Source of the DNA: Pyrenophora tritici-repentis
Taxonomy: Eukaryota; Ascomycota; Dothideomycetes; Pleosporales; Pleosporaceae
Reading direction: 5' to 3'
NCBI RefSeq assembly: GCF_003171515.1
Contig: NC_089394.1
Span: 1,178,001-1,242,000, forward strand
Length of the DNA: 64,000 bases
Under the pieces are notes generated by a model. It made no database searches and was not told the DNA's origin. It was given only the letters and a program-made list of their open reading frames with translations. Below are positions 3,765-23,381 of the stretch, piece after piece. Position numbers and translations under genes: made by a program. Numbering within the stretch: the first letter of the stretch is position 1; every line of letters begins with the position of its first letter.

Positions 3765-4292
3765 AGACAGTTGTTCAATGACATGAAGACAATGATCCCG
3801 ATGGTCCCGATGAGACTGTTGAGCGTGATATTCGAGTGTGCAGAGTGTGATTGGGTCTGTCTTCTGGTGCCATCAGCAACACCCGTCGCCTTCTTCTTTT
3901 CCCCCGTAGCACCTAAGTGCCCCGCACATGGCAATGGCGTGATCAATAGTAGTAGTACGTTACGTATCGTATGCGCGGCAGAAAGAAACATTTTGTGTAA
4001 ACTACCTAGGTAGATGGGGATTTGCGCAGATGGGGCTAGTACGTAAACGGAAGCGGCGAGGGCACATCCTGCTGCCTACCTAGGTACCCTACCGGTAAGT
4101 TAACAACCTGAGGTGCGGCCAAAACACGTCACTCAATCCGCTCATCCATCACCTGTCTTCAAACGCCAACAGTCACTGTACGGCAAGTCTTCGATTCATA
4201 CATGACTTTGGGGCGGCAAATTCTTGCGACGAGAATGTAGCAGCCCATGTGCAGACGATTGAGCTCTGGACTGTACTGATGCCTCCAGGTAG

Positions 4293-10793: not shown

Positions 10794-10927
10794 TACGCTG
10801 GTAAATGGGTCGGGGTTGGGTTGGGGTTGGGTTACCTTAATAGGTAATGACTAGGCTAACTTGGAACTAGTCATTACCTATTAAGGTAACCCAACCCCAA
10901 CCCAACCCCGACCCATTTACCAGCGTA
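10794..10927. mobile_element. 134-bp foldback MITE of the histone-carrying hAT family
   Basis: Flanked by the perfect 8-bp duplication GTCGGAGC (10786-10793 and 10928-10935). It starts TACGCTGGTAAATGGG, and the reverse complement of its right end reads the same. The arms are near-perfect inverted repeats of about 57 bp around a short loop, so the element can form one long hairpin. The ends match those of the intact hAT at 12091-17963 (TACGCTGGCAAATGGG), and it carries the same GGGTTGGGG repeats. It is therefore a non-autonomous derivative likely mobilised by that transposase. Confidence 0.9.
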
Positions 10928-12048: not shown

Positions 12049-12090
12049 TAAGGTTATTATAAAAACGCTGCAGGACTTTAAGATTACGTC

Positions 12091-12290
12091 TACGCTGGCA
12101 AATGGGTTGGGTATACCCAGTCTTGGGTTGGGGTTGGGTTGGGGTCGCACAGACCATGGGTTAGGGTTGGGTTGGGGTCGCACAGACCATGGGTTAGGGC
12201 TGGGCTGGGGTCGCACAGACCAAGTGGTAGGGTTGGGCTTGGGTTGGGTTGGGTTGGGTTGGGGTTGGGTTATATTTTTTGGGTACTTTA
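12091..12290 (+). repeat. Left terminal repeat and telomere-like G-rich subterminal array
   Basis: After the 16-bp inverted repeat come many GGGTTGGGG/GGGTTAGGG-type units. Three copies of a unit containing GGGGTCGCACAGACC lie at about 12140-12222. The G3-4 runs are spaced so that G-quadruplexes are possible. An inverted counterpart is at the right end. Confidence 0.85.
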
Positions 12291-12368
12291 ACGGAACAAC
12301 ACTTAATTAAGATAATGTGTACACGTTGATGATATAGTAGATACATAAAACGAGATATATTAACACAG

Positions 12369-15105
12369 CTAATTATCACGGTAGCGCTGAGGACGCTGGC
12401 GCTTTCGAGGTGGCAATTGACGCTCCTCCTGGACCTCTTCCTCCGACTCTTCTTCTGTAGTCTGGTTCTCCTCATCTATATCGAAGGTATGCTCTAACGA
12501 GGCTGGAAGCTCAAAAAGATCATTAACCTCGTCAATTGGCTCTCCATCCTCCCCTAATTGAGCAACTAGGTAGTCTAGACCCTGTTCTTCCTCTTGAGAT
12601 ATTGTATCCTTAAGAACCATTATCTGCTGTATTGTCCGGGCAGATAGTCGGTGCCTCCGACTACCAATAACATCCTTAGCAACATTGAAAACTCTTTCAA
12701 CCCCAACCTGAGCAATTGGTATTGCTAGTATATCCTTCGCCACTTGGGATAGTCGTGGGTAGGTAGGCTCGTTCGTCTTCCACCACTCTAGAATATCGAA
12801 AGAGTCATCTGTCATTACACAGGCAGTACTAAGGTAGGACTCTCCTTCTTGGCGGGTTGGGCCAGTTGTCTTGTCTGATTCTACTAGTGAAGAGTTCTGG
12901 GAAGAAAAGCTGTTTAACGCTGATGTAGGGGGAGGAGCTGGCTTTCTGAACCACTCATTCCCAAGTGACCTCCTTTTGACTATGCTAGAGCCTGGGGTTG
13001 AACCTCTCCCGTCCGTATTATCATAACGATCAAGGTAAGCAAGAAATTGGCCTCGGTAGAGATGCTTGTACTGTGGCTCCCATGAATCGTCCTATAAGCG
13101 TAATTAGAGCGTGACTGTGATAAATAGCTGTGATAATCATACTTCATATGCTGTAAGCTTCTGCGTTGGATCAAGGATAGTGGCACAATTAAACAAGAAC
13201 CCACGTTCTGCGTCTGTCTTCGAATAGTACTTGCTCAGTTTTAGACGACCCCTGTCAGCTGCAGCTCGTACTACGTCTAGCCATTCCCTATCATCTTGAT
13301 TTTCTTCATCCTCATCTAGGTCCTCTGACATTTTGTCCAAGAAATCAAACAGTCGATTGTACATTAACCAAATATACTGAATCTGGGGCTTCTCGTTCTG
13401 GCTGAGGAAGCTAGTTGCTGTTTTAAACCGTTTAAGCATCTCAGTAACGAGTTCGAGATGATGCCACTCAGTCGAAGATAAGCGGAGGCGTTTAAGATCC
13501 CGGAAATCAATCTCAGCCATTTGATTGTTGTCTAGAGAGCTATCCAGGTGACTACCTGGCCTTAGCAAGATTTCTTGTTTAAGCCATTCATCAATATATT
13601 TTTGGATTTTGAGCGCGCGCTCTAACATGTCGTATGTTGAGTTCCATCGGGTTTTCACGTCGCGGATAACAGATAATCGCTCCTTTGGCGGTAGATGTTG
13701 TTGTACCGCAATAAACCGCTCAAAGCGTTGAGGTGATACGTCAATAGCGATACAAATCGCCCTTATCTAGTCTATTATTAGTATGTGATAAATGAATGTG
13801 TTAAAAGCGAAATACCTTGCGAAGGGAATTTGGGACTGAAATATGCGTCTCAATGTCCTGTATATGACGTCTCTGTAGGGTATCCCTTGCTCCTAACTCT
13901 GTAGTTGCTGCTAGCCGAAGGTGTCGGATAATATCCTGGACAACGAGGTTGATAATATGGGCAAGGCAAGGGATAGTGTTTTCTCTGGCACTCCACTGAA
14001 TGTCGACTTCTTGGAGTTTAGACTGGAGAGTGCGAGCAAGTACGCTATTGTTACTAGCGTTATCACAAGTAATAGCTAGAAGCTGGGTTTTGGTCTTTGT
14101 ATCCAGAAGAATATGCAGTACCTCGTCTGCCATAGAAGTACCGGTGTGCCTGCCGCGCATAGGGAGAAAGTCAAGTAGCTTTTCCTGAAGTTTCCAGTCT
14201 TTGTTAATGTAGTAACCCTTTACCGCAAGAAAGCAGAGGTGATTAGCTGCAGACCAGGCATCTAAGGCGATTGAGATCTTTGTTGATTTTCCAAGATCTC
14301 GAAGGATAGACCTTTTTGCTTCCTCATGTTGACTCTTGAATATCGTCTTGAATTTACAACGACTAATTATCACAGTATCTGGTCGAAGGAACCGAAGAAA
14401 TCGATGGAAAGATGGTCGTTCAACTGTTCGGAATGACCAGTTGCTGTCGATTACTACCCGTACAAGCTCCTTTTCAAAGGTAGTAGTAGTGTAAGCTGGT
14501 ATTGATGAAGTACTGTTTCTTTGTTGACGTTGGGATAGAGTAGAGGCCGATAAGTCTGCCTCATTATGAATAGGAGTAAGGACATTTCGACAGCTTTTTG
14601 TTTTAAGATGAGTAATAAGGTGCTTTGTCCCAATACCACCTAGATTTGGATGCTGGAGTGCAAGACTACAGTTGTAGCAGAACACGTAGGGGTGGCCAGT
14701 TCGAAGCTCAGCAGCTTCTCCAAATCGTAACCATACTGTGCCATAGCGAGTAGGAGAGTTCCATCGTGGGTTATCATTTTTAGGGTTTATACCCCAGCTA
14801 GTATTACTCCACCACGCTGTCCATGTCCCTAAGATCTCACTTACACTATAATCTTGCAGAAAACGATTATTTGGATATTTCACTAATCCAATCGTTCTCC
14901 TGTCACCCCCCTTTGTAACCTGTGGAGAATTGATTTTTAAACAGTTGAGGTCCTCCGGAAATTCAATATTAGTAGGATTAGGCATAAGCTCAATAGACTG
15001 TGCAGCTATGTCCATCGCTTCTAGAAAGTAGTAGAATAAGGCATTAATAGTAGTAGCACACAATAGGAAAAAGTTGAGAAGTTTAAGTTTGGATGTAGGA
15101 CTCAA
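12369..15105 (-). CDS. hAT family transposase (inner element)
   Basis: Three exons on the minus strand: 15105-13816, 13766-13143 and 13091-12369, giving 878 aa. Introns are 49 and 51 nt, and both splice in phase 0. A BED-type zinc finger lies at about residues 95-172 (CYNC at 143-146, then KHLITHLKTKSC). RNase-H-like catalytic residues are visible as LDAWS (Asp282) and TCDNASNN (Asp348), followed by CLAHIINLVVQ. The C-terminal hAT dimerisation domain is at about 735-795 (WWKTNEPTYPRLSQVAKDIL, ERVF). The tail is basic. The protein should bind the terminal repeats and cut and paste the element, leaving 8-bp duplications. It appears complete and uninterrupted. Confidence 0.88.
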
Positions 15106-15364
15106 GGCTTCTCACGCTCCTCTCAGCTTTGCTTGCGCTATGACGCCTGTAATTTAACTTGAAACCTTGGCATATTACTAGCGGAATATCATTTTTAATG
15201 CCTCATAGTAAACACAGAGATCGTCAGGAGTGCACGGATATTAATCTGCATAAATGACAGATCACAATCTTAAGTTAAGATTATATGGCGCAATAATCCG
15301 TGTTAATTGGTTGTGATAACTGCTTACTATCCCTCAATGCTTGAAAGTGTCTTAGCCTAAAACT

Positions 15365-16568
15365 CTAATTATCAGACTCAGAAGCGGCATCAGAATCCGG
15401 AAACCCCTCAAACTCAGAGTCCTCAGATTCCTCAGACTCCTCAAGCGCTGCCTGCTTCTGTACAGCAGCCCACTGGTCGTCATCCTCGTACTCGTCTTCA
15501 AGTGAATTGAAATGCTCCTCAAGATCAGAGTCATAGTCAACCTCTTCTTCACACTCATCGCTATCGTCACCTTTAACGTACGGCTTATCACCCTCCAGCT
15601 CAATATCAGCGTCACCAAGTAAGTCGAGAATGCTAGGTGGCTCCCGTTGCCTTATTATATTAGTATCTCTGTGATAAAAGGATGTGATAAACTTACTGCC
15701 AGTCATTATCAGTTACGACTTTCATCTCATCAGGTGTAAGTTCCTCCACGAACTTCTCAAACTCTCTCTTAGCCTCCTTGCTCTCAAAGTCGTTGTTGTT
15801 AAGCTTTGCTAATCCTTCTTGATAGGTCTTTCGAAGAATCTTTTGCAAAACACCACCTGAGCCGTAAATTCTTGCTATTCCTCTACCACTAATGTCATGG
15901 GTGGGCTTGTCATCTTTGCTAAGCACTTTCGCAATCGTGATCTCGTGTTTTCTCATATCCACCTGCTTAGTGATCGCATCCCATTTACGATGCACATGAG
16001 TTAGGTTTGTCTCTAGCCATTCAGCTATAGTCTATTAGCAGATGTCTATGATAAACAGCTGTGATAACTTACCAGACTTTTTCTGGGTAAACCGCTTCTC
16101 TGAAAGTATATCCCACTCTTTCTCTAGCAGCTTAGCCTGTCTAGCACTATTTGCTAATTTATACTTAGGCTGTTGCAAAAGCGATTTCTTCAGTTGGTAC
16201 TTCGCGGAGTGGTCGGCTGTTCTAACGCTTTCAAGTACCTTCTCCTCTTTATCGAAAAGAGCTTTGCGTTCACGTTGAGCAATAGCACAGGCGCTACCAC
16301 TCAGAGAGCCAGTATAGGGGACGCTCAAATTGATAGGTCGGCCTTTTCGTGAACCCCCACTACCTCTTTGATCTAAGATACCGTCAATCTCGTCAGCTTC
16401 ACACGCAAATCCCTGCTTATATTAGCATAAGCTGTGATAAATGGCTGTGATTATTACATCGGTAAGCTGCTCCCACTCATCTTGTTCGAACCCAGGCGGA
16501 GGTTCAAGTTTGATGGCTGGAACTAGGCCTTCAGGTACGTCGCCGACTTGCTCTTTCGCGACAGGCAT
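15365..16568 (-). CDS. Transposon-encoded protein with long acidic C-terminus (candidate histone partner)
   Basis: Not a family I recognise. Four exons on the minus strand: 16568-16458, 16412-16073, 16024-15697 and 15650-15365. The introns are 45, 48 and 46 nt, each preserves the frame, and the product is 354 aa. I chose the ATG at 16568 (MPVAKEQVGDV) because it opens the exon that splices cleanly. The N-terminal third is mixed. The middle is lysine/glutamate-rich and probably helical (QRERKALFDKEEKVLESV). The last 95 residues are extremely acidic (DDSDECEEEVDYDSDLEE, EESEESEDSEFEG). Acidic tails of this kind are common in histone chaperones. Being divergent from the H3 gene in the same element, a role in delivering that histone is a reasonable but unproven guess. 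Confidence 0.7.
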
Positions 16569-17078
16569 GGCGGGGACTGTGATAATGCGCTGTTGTAAAT
16601 GGGGTGTTTTCAATGTAGTAAAGAGAGTTATTAGGTGTTGGGAGTTACTGGGCGTCAGGGGCTGGAGAAATGGGTAGACAGCATTATGCTCACCTAGAAA
16701 TGGTCCGTGCGCTGCTGCCTGCGCTAGCGCGAAAACGCGGAAATTACCCAAAATGATCAACACATCGATGATTCCTTCATTTTTGGGCTGCACGCATGCG
16801 CGAGCTCGGCGTTTATCACAGCAGTTTAACACGTTTGTATGATATGCTCGCTACTGATTTTGCAACAGAAATGGTTGTATGCGATCGTGAAACAGCAAAT
16901 TACGTCATGCAGTCCGTGCGCTGCTGCCTTTACTAGTGCGGAAATCGGGAAATTGCCGTCGCCCAAACTTTCCAGCTACCTAACTCTTTCAGCCTACTAC
17001 TTTCTTAATTGTCGAACACATTTATCACAGTAATTAATCACATACGTCGCCTACGTTCATCATCTACTCTACTACGCA
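16569..17078. promoter_or_regulatory. Shared divergent promoter of acidic protein and histone H3 variant
   Basis: 510 bp between the two start codons. It contains a direct repeat with period 209 bp: GTCCGTGCGCTGCTGCCT at 16703-16720 and 16912-16929, each followed by a similar GCGxAAAxCGGGAAATT-like stretch. The first copy's GCGCGAAAACGCGG matches E2F/MBF-type sites (TTTSSCGC or ACGCG), which drive S-phase transcription, including of histones. That link is an inference. Three of the paired TTATCACA motifs also lie here (16578, 16813, 17022). Confidence 0.6.
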
Positions 17079-17651
17079 ATGGCAAGGACAAAACCACGGC
17101 CTAAGGTCACCGGTAAAGCCGGCCGGGGTGGTCCTGATGGCAAGACAGTTACTGGCGGCAAGCCGGCTCAGAAGGCCCTTGCTAGTAAGGCTAGACGTCA
17201 AGTAGCAGGAAAGTCTACGCGAAAGGCACCTGTAGCTGTTAAGAAGAAGCGCAAGTTTAAGGCCGGCAGTAGGTTATCACAGTCGTTTATCACAGCTATT
17301 TTCTAATTTAGCTTAGCTGTCGCATTACGGGAAATCAAGAGATACCAGAGAGGTTTTGAACTACTCTTGCGAAAACTCCCCTTTTCCCGCGTAGTGCGCG
17401 AATTTGCACAGGTGCACAAGGCCGATATCCGCTTTCAACGATCTGCAATCGAAGCTCTTCAGGAAGCTACAGAAGCTTTCTTAGTTGGTTATTTTGAGGG
17501 TATAGTCTATCTACCCTATACTATTTTTCATTTAATAACTTTTATAGACTGCAACATCAATGCTATTCACGCAAAGAGGGTTACTATTCAAGAGAAGGAT
17601 TCTCAATTGGCTAGGCGCTACTTTGCGCGCGAGTTACTAGCTTTTCTCTAG
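17079..17651 (+). CDS. Histone H3 variant encoded by a hAT transposon
   Basis: Three exons: 17079-17268, 17317-17499 and 17548-17651, giving 158 aa (canonical H3 is about 136). The 48-nt first intron separates tail from fold and splices to KFKAGTVALREI, matching canonical PGTVALREI. The second intron (48 nt) restores YFED in the second helix. The fold is clearly H3: [54 protein letters not shown]. The tail starts MARTK and keeps [14 protein letters not shown], but it is about 19 residues longer and lacks the ARKS motifs around K9 and K27. The H3 K56 position is Arg. The C-terminus RGERA/S is replaced by [10 protein letters not shown]. Loop 1 has canonical length, so it is not an obvious CENP-A. 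Confidence 0.9.
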
Positions 17652-17814
17652 ATTATAAGATATATCTAGATACACGTGCTTAAATGCTAGCTGGCGAAGC
17701 CTCTGTATATTATAAATGAAACTAGTTAATGCTACACTGTGTTAATCTACTGTGATACTATATAAACTTTTCTTTTATTGAAATCTATATTATACATCTT
17801 GCAATTTTTTTACT

Positions 17815-17963
17815 ATAACCCAACCCTAACCCATGGTCCGTGCGACCCCAACCCAACCCCAACCCAACACTAAGCTTGGCGCTGACAAATGGGTTGGGGC
17901 TGGGTTGGGGTCGCAAAATTTCTAACCCAACCCCAACCACACCCCGACCCATTTGCCAGCGTA
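17815..17963. repeat. Right terminal repeat, G-rich array and terminal hairpin
   Basis: Inverted relative to the left array (CCAACCC and CCAACCCC units, and one GGTCCGTGCGACCCC unit). The last 84 bp (17880-17963) form a foldback: a CGCTGACAAATGGG copy faces the true terminal CCCATTTGCCAGCG. This sub-terminal hairpin looks like the 134-bp MITE at 10794-10927. Confidence 0.75.
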
Positions 17964-18062
17964 ATTACGTCGTAGTTAATCAGTTACTTTATACTTAATA
18001 ACGCTACTAATAACGACAGTACTATCGTAATATTAGCTTAAGAGTATAGTTTTAATGCTACC

Positions 18063-18268: not shown

Positions 18269-18545
18269 CTGATCAGTGGTTGCTACACCACAGATCGGCT
18301 AGATATCTGACAAGGAGACCCATCAGCTCTTTTGCTGTGTAGTCTTGGCCAAGAAGCGACTCCTCCTACCTCACAGTAGCAAGGAGTGCGAAGTACAGCA
18401 CCGCCCGCAGAGACTACCTATCAAGGTAGCGCTTTCGCCGACAGTTCTGAAGGAGATCTTGAACGAAAAGATCTGCGTCAACCACGCACAAAAACAACTG
18501 ACAACGCCTGCAACTAACAGCAAACAATCGACTGACTTCAGCACC

Positions 18546-21500
18546 ATGGCACCATACAAGAGCGTCAAGTACCGATCGTGGTACTCCGAGATGCACAAGA
18601 GTGAGTATGTCAACGCGGAACTCGACCCGACCGACACAGTCATAAACACCGACAAACTGAACACTGTCGTCCTCGATTGGGTCGTCCAAGTTGAAGACGA
18701 TGGACAGTTCGACCTCTTCATCCTCCAGGAGTTCCAAAAGTCCTTCGAGGATTGGACTCAAGATATCATAAGTGCGGTCGACGTGCGGCTCCGGAAAGCA
18801 GTCAAGGAATTGCTCCGACACCGAGGGATTTACATCCAGATCAACAGTCGTGACACAGTAATAACGCAACTGTACAACCTCCTCCATCTCTCGTCGTGCC
18901 CGATATGGCCTGACGACGAGCTTGAGCTTATGCGACTCGTCGACGGTTTCAAGTGTCGACAGCTCACAAACAGCAACTACAGTTACCCTAACCCTCCGCA
19001 GCCACCAACAGGATACCCACAAGCACAGTACTCACCGTCGCCAGCTCAACTCAACGTGACAGCACTCACAAACCTCGCGAAGCTGTACAATAACAACGAT
19101 AAGTTCAGTGGTGACAAGTATGACGTGCTCAGTCACAAACTGGTCATCTTTCGAGAGCTTTGCGCCAAAGTCGGCATTCAACCTGGCCAAACTGACCGCT
19201 ACAAGCTAGCCATCTCTACTATGCTTACTGGCAAAGCGTCAACTTACTACTACCAATCTATCGCTCCACTTGACCTTGGATACGAAGACATCATCGCGAA
19301 ACTGGGCGCCTACTTCCACACTACCGAGAACTACCAGTTGTTCTTGAACGAATGGCGCACCATTATGCTAAAGGACGTCATCGCAAGTAATCCTGACAAG
19401 ACAATTGCGCAATGCCTTGACTTGCTCATCGACAAGCTCCACAAGCTGTACCAAGCGATGGCTCAGCAGAATGGACTCAGCGAGTCAAGCCTCACCGGAC
19501 AACTTGTGTCAGCATGCCAGGGTGTCGAAGCCTGCAGCGCAGTCCTGATCCGACCTGCGTCGACCTTTGAAGCAGTCGCTTCAGAGCTCCGCAACGCCGT
19601 CGGTAACTGGCAACGCTGTCACCCGCATGCTCGAACGCAGTTCAACTATGACAATGAACAGACAGACGATGACATCTTCTACACAAACCGACGATACAAC
19701 CGAAACGACGAACCTCGCGAAAGACCCCGAGGCTATGGCACCGGTCGCTTCAACCGCGGACCGACGCTGTCACGACCGCGATACCCTCCCCGCCGCTCGC
19801 ACGATAAAAAGTGCTATGTGTGCGGCAAACAAGGATGCTGGTCAACGCGACATTCACACGAGGAGCGCAATGAGTCGCACCAACGCTTCAAGACTTATGT
19901 CCAAAACCACGATCTTGATGACGACTACGACGTGTTCCTCGCCGGATTCGAAGGCATCGAGCTTCATGACGAGGCAGAGGACGACGACGGCAACCGCGTT
20001 GATGACCTCGATGCGTACTTCCAACATGAACAATTCAACACCGCTGCTTGCGGAACCATCGACGGGCAAGCGCTCACCATCAACCTCAACGACGCCGCGG
20101 CGACCCACGCGATCACTGGGATCGACCCATACGCGTCGGAGACTGCAAAGGAGGCACCCCACATGTTCACCTTCGATCACCGATATGGTGCTCACTGTTT
20201 CCAAGGCATCATGCCCGACACCGGCGCGGCCGGAGTCTCCACTGCAGGAAAGACCCAGGTCATGGCACTGCAACGCCTCCAGCCATCGGCCACGATCAAT
20301 GAGTCCACGGCAGGTCGCCACCGAATTCGATTTGGAGATAACCCAGAGTGTCTCTCACTTGGCGAGGTGAAGGTCAAAACCCCGCTCGGCGTTATACTTT
20401 TTGCGGTGATGCCGACCAACACGCCTTTCTTGCTGTGCCTTGCAGACATGGACCGCCACGGGATCTACCTCAACAATGTTGACAACGTGCTTGTACACGA
20501 GTCACGGGAGTACCCCATTGTGCGCAAATGGGGACACCCATGGCTCCTGCTCGACGACCAAGAGACCGCGACGCACTACCTCACCGAGGTAGAGCTTGCG
20601 CAACTCCATCGGCGCTTTGGTCATCCAGCTGCGGGACGACTCTACAAGGTCCTCGCGAGAGCAGGTTATGACGAAGTCGATGCGGCGACCATCGAAAAGA
20701 TCAACAAGTTCTGTCACCAATGTCAGATTACTGGCAAGGCGCCAGGACGATTTCGGTTTACCCTCCGCGACGATATCAACTTCAACTATCGACTTATCGT
20801 CGACGTGATGTACATTAATCAGAGGCCAGTACTTCATGCTATTGACGAAGCAACTGCCTTCCAAGCAGCGCGCTTTCTCACCGACATGAAAGCAAGCACA
20901 ACATGGGACACACTCCGCGCCATGTGGATCGATATGTACGTTGGTCCGCCTGATGTCATAGCCACCGACGCTGGCAAGAACTTTGCGAGCGAGGAGTTTG
21001 TCAACAATGCAAAGACAATGGCCATCGAGGTTGACGAGGTGCCTGTCGAGGCGCATAACTCCATCGGCAAGGTGGAGCGGTACCATGCGGCCATCCGCCG
21101 TGCCTTCGAAGTCATCTCCGCCGACATAGACAGCGACACGTCATCTGAACACCTCCTCCAGATGGCTGTGAAAGCCGTCAACGACACTGCTGGTCCAGAT
21201 GGCCTTGTGCCTACTCTCCTCGTCTTTGGCACCTACCCCCGCCTATCCAAGACATCGCCGCCATCACCATCCATCAGCGCGCGCGCGAAAGCGATAAAGA
21301 ACGCGATGGCGGAGGTCCGCAAGATCAAAGCAAAACGCCAGGTGAACGACGCACTTGCGACACGCAACGGACCGAACGTCATTGAAACGCTTCAGCTCCC
21401 GATCCAGAGCAGCGTAAAGGTTTGGCGCGAGAACCGCGGTTGGACTGGTCCCCATACCCTCATCGCCATGAACGACGACCTAACCGCCGCGATTGTCGAC

Positions 21501-23381
21501 GTCGACGGCAGGCAGGCGACATTTCGAGTCACATCGGTGCAGCCATACCACCGCAACAACTCCACCGTTATCCCGCGCGACGACGACGACAACGACAATT
21601 GCGGGGATGCGGACGATGACGAGTTTATCCCAGAGACAGAAGTTCCACCTCCACGAAAGCGCGGTCGCCCCAAAGGCTCCAAAAACAAGCCAAAACCAGC
21701 TCCCATCGAGACCAACGACGTCAACCTCACGCAACGCGAGGAGGACGACTTAGTGCTGTCCAGGAAGCTGCGTGCCACTGGCAAGATCACAACCCTAGGC
21801 GAACCATTCGAACTATCCACCAAGGCAGAGATTGACGCGCTGATCACTCGCGGAGTGTTCCGCTTCGAGGAGTATGACCCTCAGCGCCATGGTGGCATCC
21901 GCGTCTTTAAGTCACGGATTGTCAACGAGGTCAAAGGCAAAACTACCACTAAGCCGTACGAGAAATCGCGCCTCGTTGTTCAGGGTTATGCCGATGATGG
22001 AAAACGGATTGTGCTCACACAAAGCCCGACGATCCAGCGCGCCAGTCAGCGCATTATTATCGCGCTTGCACCCTCACTGCTTCAAATGGGCATGACGCTA
22101 TGGCTTCGAGATATCACGCAGGCGTACACGCAAGCCGATGACCATCTCCAGCGCACGATCATCGCGGATCTTCCCACGCAACTCCGCAATGTCTACCCCA
22201 AAGGCACCATCATGGTGGTCGTGAAGCCGCTGTACGGCATCGCCGAGGCAGGAGCGTACTGGTGGTCAACCTACTTCAAACACCATACCACGACACTCGG
22301 GATGGAAACATCAACCTATGACCCGTGCCTCTTAATCACCAAGCCAACGGCGTTAGGCTTTGGTATTGTCGGCATGCAAACTGATGACACGCTCGGTCTG
22401 TCCGATGACGTGTTTGCCAATAAGGAGAGCAAGGAGCTGCGCTTCAGCGCCAAAGAGAAGCAGTTTCTTACTACTAACAACCCTATCGACTTTAACGGGT
22501 GCGTCGTTAGTCTCACAACAGACGGCGTGATCACACTACGCCAAAAGAAACAAGGTGAGAAACTGGAGATCGCAACTGACAAGAAGACGTACATTCAACA
22601 ACGCGCACGTGGCGCTTACATCGCGACAATCTGTCAACCCGAAGCAAGCTTCGACCTCGCCGCTGCTGCGCAAGCGAGTGAGCCTACAAAAGAAGAAATA
22701 TCCAAGTTAAACAAACGCATCGAATGGCAAAAGAAGAACCTCTGCCATGGGTTGACCTACGTACCTCTGGACATACGCAACCTCAAGCTGTTTACCCTAG
22801 TCGACGCGTCCTTTGCCAACAACAAGGATATGAGCTCCCAGATGGGATTCGTCATCGTACTCGGCAATGAAGTCACCTCAAGCGACACAAACTTCGGGAT
22901 ACGTGGCAACATCGTCCACTGGTCCTCAGTCAAATGCAAGCGGATCACCAGGAGCGTCCTCGCCTCCGAGATCTACGCGATGGCGCACGGCGTAGATATC
23001 GCAGTCGCGATCGGCGGCACCATTGATATGGTCATGGAACGACTCAACTTACCTAAGGTCCCCATCGTGGTATGCACCGACTCGCGATCGCTATACGATT
23101 GCCTTGTCAAGCTCGGCACCACCAAGGAGAAACGCCTTATGATTGACATCATGGCAATGCGCGAAGCCTACGAGCGCAGCGAACTCATGGATATCAGATG
23201 GATCGACGGTCGCGACAACCCAGCAGACTCTATGACAAAGGCAGGTTGCAACGCCGCGATAGAGAACCTCATCAACTCTAACGAGCTCAACCTCCGAGTG
23301 CAAGGGTGGGTCAACCGTGATCGCAACACCAAGCCCACGACCGAGAGCACCGAGCTCAGCAACCTTGAAGGCACCAAGTAG
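18546..23381 (+). CDS. Copia-1 gag-pol polyprotein
   Basis: One open frame of 1,611 aa from the ATG at 18546; the same frame is open further upstream but without an ATG. Order of domains: gag; zinc knuckle-like KCYVCGKQGCWSTRH; protease with PDTGAAG; integrase with the HRRFGH...CHQC zinc finger and core (IVDVMYIN, VIATDAGKNFASEEF, and a Glu in SIGKVERYHA); reverse transcriptase with RDITQAYTQ, KPLYGIAEAGAYWW and MQTDDTLGL; RNase H with TLVDASFANNKD and ASEIYAM. Integrase before RT defines Copia. The usual Y/FxDD box is QTDD. Gag and pol are fused without frameshift or stop. All domains look intact. Confidence 0.9.
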   Translation: MAPYKSVKYRSWYSEMHKSEYVNAELDPTDTVINTDKLNTVVLDWVVQVEDDGQFDLFILQEFQKSFEDWTQDIISAVDVRLRKAVKELLRHRGIYIQINSRDTVITQLYNLLHLSSCPIWPDDELELMRLVDGFKCRQLTNSNYSYPNPPQPPTGYPQAQYSPSPAQLNVTALTNLAKLYNNNDKFSGDKYDVLSHKLVIFRELCAKVGIQPGQTDRYKLAISTMLTGKASTYYYQSIAPLDLGYEDIIAKLGAYFHTTENYQLFLNEWRTIMLKDVIASNPDKTIAQCLDLLIDKLHKLYQAMAQQNGLSESSLTGQLVSACQGVEACSAVLIRPASTFEAVASELRNAVGNWQRCHPHARTQFNYDNEQTDDDIFYTNRRYNRNDEPRERPRGYGTGRFNRGPTLSRPRYPPRRSHDKKCYVCGKQGCWSTRHSHEERNESHQRFKTYVQNHDLDDDYDVFLAGFEGIELHDEAEDDDGNRVDDLDAYFQHEQFNTAACGTIDGQALTINLNDAAATHAITGIDPYASETAKEAPHMFTFDHRYGAHCFQGIMPDTGAAGVSTAGKTQVMALQRLQPSATINESTAGRHRIRFGDNPECLSLGEVKVKTPLGVILFAVMPTNTPFLLCLADMDRHGIYLNNVDNVLVHESREYPIVRKWGHPWLLLDDQETATHYLTEVELAQLHRRFGHPAAGRLYKVLARAGYDEVDAATIEKINKFCHQCQITGKAPGRFRFTLRDDINFNYRLIVDVMYINQRPVLHAIDEATAFQAARFLTDMKASTTWDTLRAMWIDMYVGPPDVIATDAGKNFASEEFVNNAKTMAIEVDEVPVEAHNSIGKVERYHAAIRRAFEVISADIDSDTSSEHLLQMAVKAVNDTAGPDGLVPTLLVFGTYPRLSKTSPPSPSISARAKAIKNAMAEVRKIKAKRQVNDALATRNGPNVIETLQLPIQSSVKVWRENRGWTGPHTLIAMNDDLTAAIVDVDGRQATFRVTSVQPYHRNNSTVIPRDDDDNDNCGDADDDEFIPETEVPPPRKRGRPKGSKNKPKPAPIETNDVNLTQREEDDLVLSRKLRATGKITTLGEPFELSTKAEIDALITRGVFRFEEYDPQRHGGIRVFKSRIVNEVKGKTTTKPYEKSRLVVQGYADDGKRIVLTQSPTIQRASQRIIIALAPSLLQMGMTLWLRDITQAYTQADDHLQRTIIADLPTQLRNVYPKGTIMVVVKPLYGIAEAGAYWWSTYFKHHTTTLGMETSTYDPCLLITKPTALGFGIVGMQTDDTLGLSDDVFANKESKELRFSAKEKQFLTTNNPIDFNGCVVSLTTDGVITLRQKKQGEKLEIATDKKTYIQQRARGAYIATICQPEASFDLAAAAQASEPTKEEISKLNKRIEWQKKNLCHGLTYVPLDIRNLKLFTLVDASFANNKDMSSQMGFVIVLGNEVTSSDTNFGIRGNIVHWSSVKCKRITRSVLASEIYAMAHGVDIAVAIGGTIDMVMERLNLPKVPIVVCTDSRSLYDCLVKLGTTKEKRLMIDIMAMREAYERSELMDIRWIDGRDNPADSMTKAGCNAAIENLINSNELNLRVQGWVNRDRNTKPTTESTELSNLEGTK

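Follow-up and report, generated by a model that had tools for sequence, protein, structure and literature searches.

A histone H3 variant gene carried by a hAT element of Pyrenophora tritici-repentis: possible nucleosome subunit of the transposon or passenger

What is a histone H3 gene doing inside a DNA transposon? The original prediction placed an H3 variant gene, here called H3L, within an intact hAT element in the window (the whole 64-kb stretch of DNA analysed here), and the best database protein matches, at 99% identity, come from Pyrenophora tritici-repentis (Ptr), a tan-spot fungus of wheat. The element and its H3L gene are already known: they were described in Ptr by Manning et al. 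2013 (PMC3538342) and are discussed in Dhillon et al. 2019 (PMC6710886), as seen in the accessible parts of both papers, so the earlier impression that no example had been described was wrong. In the accessible text of Manning et al., the element occurs as a ~5.6-kb form with a transposase, a central ORF and H3L in 10 copies, and as a ~2.3-kb form with an in-frame fusion of the central ORF and the transposase end in 16 copies; 26 near-identical H3L genes as well as H3L ESTs are reported for the Ptr reference isolate. The element analysed here agrees with that account in its layout, its long and short forms, its near-identical copies and the short-form fusion. The same text, as far as accessible, makes no mention of a wider H3L family, of the loss of Lys9, or of the interface residues, central ORF homologues and related introns reported below.

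The element and its three genes

The element lies in the window as follows.

10794-10927, plus strand: separate, gene-free MITE-like element of 134 bp, TSD GTCGGAGC, whose TIRs belong to the same family and have one mismatch
12083-12090, no strand: left target duplication (TSD), ATTACGTC
12091-17963: whole hAT element, 5,873 bp, with perfect 16-bp inverted repeats (TIRs) and an 8-bp target duplication
12091-12106, plus strand: left TIR, 16 bp, exact match to TACGCTGGCAAATGGG
12369-15015, minus strand: hAT transposase gene, 848 aa, three exons, from open frame, splice sites and PF05699
15365-16568, minus strand: second gene, 355 aa, four exons, the 'central ORF' of Manning et al.
17079-17651, plus strand: H3L, histone H3 variant gene, 158 aa, three exons, from frame, Pfam and solved structures
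17269-17316, plus strand: H3L intron 1, related in sequence to three second-gene introns and two transposase introns
17500-17547, plus strand: H3L intron 2, unrelated to the other six introns in a shuffle test
17948-17963, minus strand: right TIR, 16 bp, exact match to TACGCTGGCAAATGGG
17964-17971, no strand: right TSD, ATTACGTC, identical to the left TSD

The 8-bp TSD, the short TIRs and a transposase with the hAT dimerisation domain assign the element to the hAT superfamily. The transposase gene (exons 15015-13816, 13766-13143 and 13091-12369; introns 13815-13767 and 13142-13092) has an uninterrupted frame of 848 aa, with the dimerisation domain PF05699 in its last exon at 6.2e-21, above the cut-off, and the hAT-like RNase-H domain PF14372 at only 0.0037, below it. 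H3L consists of exons 17079-17268, 17317-17499 and 17548-17651 separated by GT-AG introns, and its product matches the Pfam Histone profile PF00125 at 9.4e-32 in a profile search, with histone H3 as the top solved-structure match over residues 22-149. The prediction of an intact element in which a complete transposase adjoins a spliced, open H3 gene with an H3 fold was thus borne out, including the perfect TIRs and TSD. The third gene, on the minus strand at 16568-15365, had not been listed.

Three further features of the region were observed. Subterminal G-rich repeats of GGGTTGGGGTTGGG, in places GGGTTAGGGTTGGG, which resemble telomere repeats, occupy both element ends (12107-12275 and 17815-17947). 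Adjoining the element, a 1,692-codon open frame at 18303-23381 looks by eye like an intact Copia-type retrotransposon polyprotein. The MITE-like element at 10794-10927 is palindromic, is flanked by a perfect 8-bp TSD, and has similar counterparts elsewhere in the genome.

H3L has the histone fold of a canonical H3 but not the near-invariant tail with ARKS at Lys9 or the RGER-type end: Lys9 is absent and the C-terminal end is of another type. Nor is it a CENP-A (CenH3), as H3L groups among non-centromeric H3s in the tree and lacks the loop 1 insertion of the host CENP-A-like gene. A structural model of H3L had the helix order of an H3 at a low mean pLDDT of 52.4 and was not counted as evidence. 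H3L agrees with host H3 at 62 of 86 fold positions and 21 of 44 tail positions; the single intron of host H3 lies near codon 19, where H3L has none, and the two H3L introns sit elsewhere. Given this divergence and the non-matching intron positions, recent capture of host H3 is not favoured as the source of H3L.

The second gene (introns 16457-16416, 16072-16025 and 15696-15651) encodes a protein in which Pfam and fold searches recognised no domain or fold, nor any DNA-binding domain; its model (mean pLDDT 60.6), which was not counted as evidence, gave no Foldseek match at E ≤ 0.001. Coiled-coil-like helices are predicted with low confidence, and the last 90 residues are strongly acidic (37 D+E versus 3 K+R in P0121). 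Its relatives number 17 proteins in all, mostly from Ptr, the others including proteins of P. teres (64%), a metagenome (47%), Bipolaris sorokiniana (46%), Exserohilum turcica (41%) and Parastagonospora nodorum (38%). Their C-terminal acidity is similar or strong in six of the seven aligned relatives, with 28-39 D+E in all seven. In P. teres, H3L (CFE70_001393) and the second-gene homologue (CFE70_001394) have consecutive locus tags, from which we infer that they are neighbours; the pair therefore probably predates Ptr.

Sequence kinship links six of the seven introns of the element, which are spread over its three genes: each of the 15 pairs that the six can form outscores at least 495 of 500 shuffles, a level that none of the pairs with H3L intron 2 reaches. 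The six have in common a core, TTATCACAG, which is mostly doubled and runs in the sense direction in every case. Allowing up to one mismatch, a genome-wide search finds 121 matches to the doubled motif, versus 0 for a reversed control, and among the matches listed only three lie outside TIR-bounded copies, one of them in an internal element fragment. Given this kinship across the element, H3L intron 1 probably arose within the element rather than coming from host H3. A DNA-binding site was considered as the role of the motif and is less likely than shared intron ancestry, since the intronic copies are all sense. The kinship may reflect an introner-like gain confined to the transposon or a shared function in RNA. 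The introner-like elements of Dothideomycetes (PMC4457414, accessible part) likewise comprise several related introns in unrelated genes; however, they occupy hundreds of host genes, whereas the Ptr motif is found, among the matches listed, almost only inside the element and not as near-identical introns in many unrelated host genes.

Copies in the genome and the action of RIP

The 40.9-Mb genome contains 31 exact-TIR pairs, and every one of the 31 intervals between them carries H3L. All 33 H3L genes in these intervals were read; 30 are intact and three (L001, L005 and L006) are broken. Since 31 exact-TIR pairs hold 33 H3L genes, the presence of H3L in the element is more than chance. Two intervals on C7 and C18 (L009 and L015) have identical flanks and are probably one locus assembled twice; treating them as one leaves 28 intact H3L genes out of 31. 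By layout, 11 intervals are long and 18 have the short form, with inserts present in L006, L007 and L014 among the latter; each of the C7 and C18 intervals contains a pair of short elements. The accessible text of Manning et al. (PMC3538342) gives 10 long and 16 short copies. Five of the 11 long copies have an intact transposase and eight an intact second gene. In the short form, element positions 664 and 3937 are joined, a junction that deletes the acidic tail of the second gene along with the bulk of the transposase and leaves H3L in place; the short-form copy L016 encodes a 275-aa fusion of the second-gene N-terminus with the hAT dimerisation domain, a protein also present in protein databases (P0128).

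A perfect 8-bp TSD flanks 21 of the 31 intervals. In two imperfect pairs, L006/L007 (C6:2874838-2883467 and C6:2911687-2916490) and L029/L030 (C4:2928690-2931284 and C4:2934227-2936820), the TSD halves are exchanged, the pattern that inversion through recombination between copies in opposite orientation should leave.

It had been asked whether close relatives of H3L lie between the same repeats, and in this genome they do: all matches fall within TIR-bounded intervals except host H3 (C1:7660399), the CENP-A-like gene (C1:4440829) and one chance-level match (E 1.5). Two observations that would have spoken against the original prediction, copies lacking the gene as a rule and a degenerate H3 frame elsewhere, were not made. 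Related sequence free of H3L consists of the 134-bp MITE-like elements, a transposase fragment (L041) and a second-gene relic (L040). L041 (3053-5180, on C2) is a 2,128-bp piece from within the transposase region; it matches the window element at 99.9% identity and has no TIRs, second gene or H3L. L040 (~4008-4282, on C7) is an old, diverged relic, 57% identical over 79 aa, and neither H3L nor a transposase was found near it in the 8 kb read.

L001 differs from the other long copies at 279 sites; 228 of these are C-to-T or G-to-A changes, 183 of them in CpA. The lineage has thus been subject to RIP, and L001 shows this for a copy that bears H3L. The remaining ten long copies have 2 to 9 differences from their common sequence. 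The proposed comparison of dN/dS between copies was made and gave 0.97 for the H3L of L001; the value is uninformative, because ten copies are near-identical and the eleventh is a RIP product. Selection on H3L, which the original prediction had suggested, is therefore not seen within this genome and finds indirect support in proteins of other species. P. teres has open H3Ls at 67-68% identity, one of which (P0054) is complete at 149 aa, and the Ptr and P. teres proteins agree at 68 of 86 fold positions versus 28 of 48 tail positions, the better-kept fold being what constraint on a histone would lead one to expect.

The same genome also has an abundant transposase family that is distantly related (~25% identity) and has no H3L; 44 of its 103 matches listed have a 784-aa frame with no stop. 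As this H3L-free family is open, escape from RIP does not need H3L. The notion of H3L as a shield against RIP is unsupported, with L001 RIP-mutated and the H3L-free family unRIPped.

H3L-like variants in other fungi

Proteins with an unusual C-terminus like that of H3L were found, besides Ptr, in four further Pleosporales, P. teres, Paraphoma, Alternaria and Massariosphaeria, as well as in two metagenomic proteins, P0067 and P0069. The named members were drawn from the best 120 of 7,917 protein matches and picked by a C-terminal RYY-like sequence; a second P. teres row, P0094, which is partly mis-spliced, and the broken Ptr proteins P0032, P0035, P0041 and P0053 were left out of the counts. 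The family is surely larger than the members found, and this selection may have passed over members with other residues. A search with an alignment of six H3Ls was swamped by double-length animal and plant H3s: only P0054 and P0066 of the six appeared among the matches listed, and no new member was recognised among the best 120 of these.

In a tree of 28 H3 folds built on all fold columns, the seven H3L-type sequences form one clade (99/95), and with the diagnostic C-terminal columns removed the clade is neither recovered nor rejected (p-AU 0.40). Asn110, Leu126, Tyr130 and Tyr or Phe131 occur in all five named fungi and Ile109 in four of the five, where host H3 has Leu109, Cys110, Leu126, Leu130 and Arg131. 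Positions 109, 110, 126 and 130 belong to the H3-H3 hydrophobic cluster, which has been used to design non-self-pairing H3s (PMC5626479, accessible part). In a gappy alignment of the tail, Lys9 is absent from all five named fungi (Thr, Leu, Ala, Ala, His or Pro), and Lys14, Lys18 and Lys23 are kept in all five and Lys27 in four, the Paraphoma protein being without a start. The metagenomic clade members P0067 and P0069 have Lys9, and its presence or absence changes at least three times on the tree, once in P0088 outside the clade. Residues such as Arg49, Leu65, Pro66, Arg69, Arg72, Arg83, Arg116 and Thr118, which we take to be DNA-contacting or structural residues of H3, are kept in all five named fungi.

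Several known systems resemble H3L in part, as far as the accessible text of each source goes. The RIP-inactivated H3-hATs of six Mycosphaerellaceae (Dhillon et al. 2019, PMC6710886), such as those of Pseudocercospora, Cercospora and Sphaerulina, likewise have an 8-bp TSD and amplify an H3-like sequence, but they are ~9.5 kb long, carry an intronless H3, number hundreds of copies and are all RIP-inactivated, and the authors saw no similarity between them and the Ptr hAT. The repeat R25 of Parastagonospora (Stagonospora) nodorum (PMC3017866) is RIP-degraded, has weak DNA-transposon similarity and includes an H3 region whose best match was the Ptr H3 EDU47581.1; it differs in that it was reclassified in that source as a region presumed to hold an endogenous gene. 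H3V-CTG of Candida albicans (PMC6703697) is also a non-centromeric ascomycete H3 variant but is an ordinary host gene of the CTG clade, with no transposon described in the accessible part. Searches of the open-licence literature found no printed account of a wider H3L family, of the loss of Lys9 or of the second-gene homologues.

Possible roles of H3L

We tentatively favour, at somewhat less than even chances, the reading that H3L is a nucleosome subunit which could not be methylated at Lys9 and would be likely to pair with itself, that the acidic second protein is its likely partner, and that the two may ease escape of the element from silencing. According to this model, which is drawn from sequence comparisons, the H3L protein would be made and would assemble with host H4, and the resulting nucleosomes, without Lys9, would be unable to carry the H3K9 methyl silencing mark. 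The changed interface at Asn110 and Tyr130 may favour pairing of H3L with H3L over pairing with host H3, and the second protein, a putative chaperone of H3L given its acidity and linkage, would bind or guide it. H3L would then act on the DNA of the element itself, not genome-wide, and the benefit may be escape from H3K9-dependent heterochromatin, with element copies that are likely harder to silence. Speaking for this reading are the H3 fold and the DNA-contacting or structural residues kept in five of five fungi, the loss of Lys9 in all five together with the retention of Lys14, Lys18 and Lys23, the altered residues of the H3-H3 cluster, the retention of the gene in 31 of 31 intervals, short forms included, the consecutive locus tags in P. 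teres, and the better-kept fold between Ptr and P. teres. Counting against it are the heavy RIP mutation of L001 in spite of its H3L, the observation that H3L is not needed for spread or RIP escape in this genome, the Lys9 kept by P0067 and P0069, the failure of the clade to be recovered, or rejected, once its diagnostic C-terminal columns are removed, a dN/dS that shows no constraint within this genome, and a second protein in which no domain or fold was recognised.

Nearly as likely is that H3L is a passive passenger, a captured H3-like gene that is copied along without a role and whose odd residues are the result of drift, since no selection is seen in this genome and spread does not depend on H3L. 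Manning et al. 2013 take this view, in that H3L is for them neither a true H3 nor a CenH3 and 'may have undergone drift' (PMC3538342, accessible part); Dhillon et al. 2019, who regard the Ptr H3L as a recent, independent capture of a housekeeping transcript (PMC6710886, accessible part), come close to it. The intactness of near-identical copies mostly reflects recent spread, the H3L-free transposase family spreads as well, and the one diverged copy has a dN/dS of about 1, although this is RIP-driven. However, drift over the 32-33% amino-acid divergence between the two Pyrenophora species should have broken the frame, and the P. teres gene is complete; their H3Ls differ less in the fold than in the tail, Asn110 and Tyr130 recur in five fungi, and every TIR-bounded copy, even a short one, has kept H3L. 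A role in transposition itself, in which H3L and the second protein would act at the element ends or target sites rather than in evasion of silencing, for example by opening chromatin or by assembling the transposase-DNA complex, appears improbable. The short form does keep H3L along with the fusion of the second-gene N-terminus to the hAT dimerisation domain, but the transposase of long copies could move short copies whatever their cargo, hAT elements generally transpose without any histone, and the second protein lacks a recognised DNA-binding domain. Still less probable is an untargeted dosage effect, in which many H3L copies would titrate host H4 or H3 chaperones, leaving the host's chromatin looser overall: about thirty intact H3L genes and the published ESTs (PMC3538342, accessible part) are in keeping with it, but a strong general effect should harm the host and be selected against.

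The reading of H3L as a nucleosome subunit of the element predicts that copies wrapped in H3L should be without H3K9me3. A broader form of it, which we consider rather unlikely, is that a hAT lineage in Pleosporales carries a two-gene chromatin kit, made up of a self-pairing H3 variant that would escape methylation at Lys9 and a dedicated acidic partner protein, and has kept it across species because it would place silencing-proof nucleosomes on the element's own DNA. The variant family in five fungi and the second-gene homologues across Pleosporales make the function of H3L worth testing. If the kit were real, a selfish element would replace the host histone on its own DNA, and the larger question is whether such an element can write its own chromatin.
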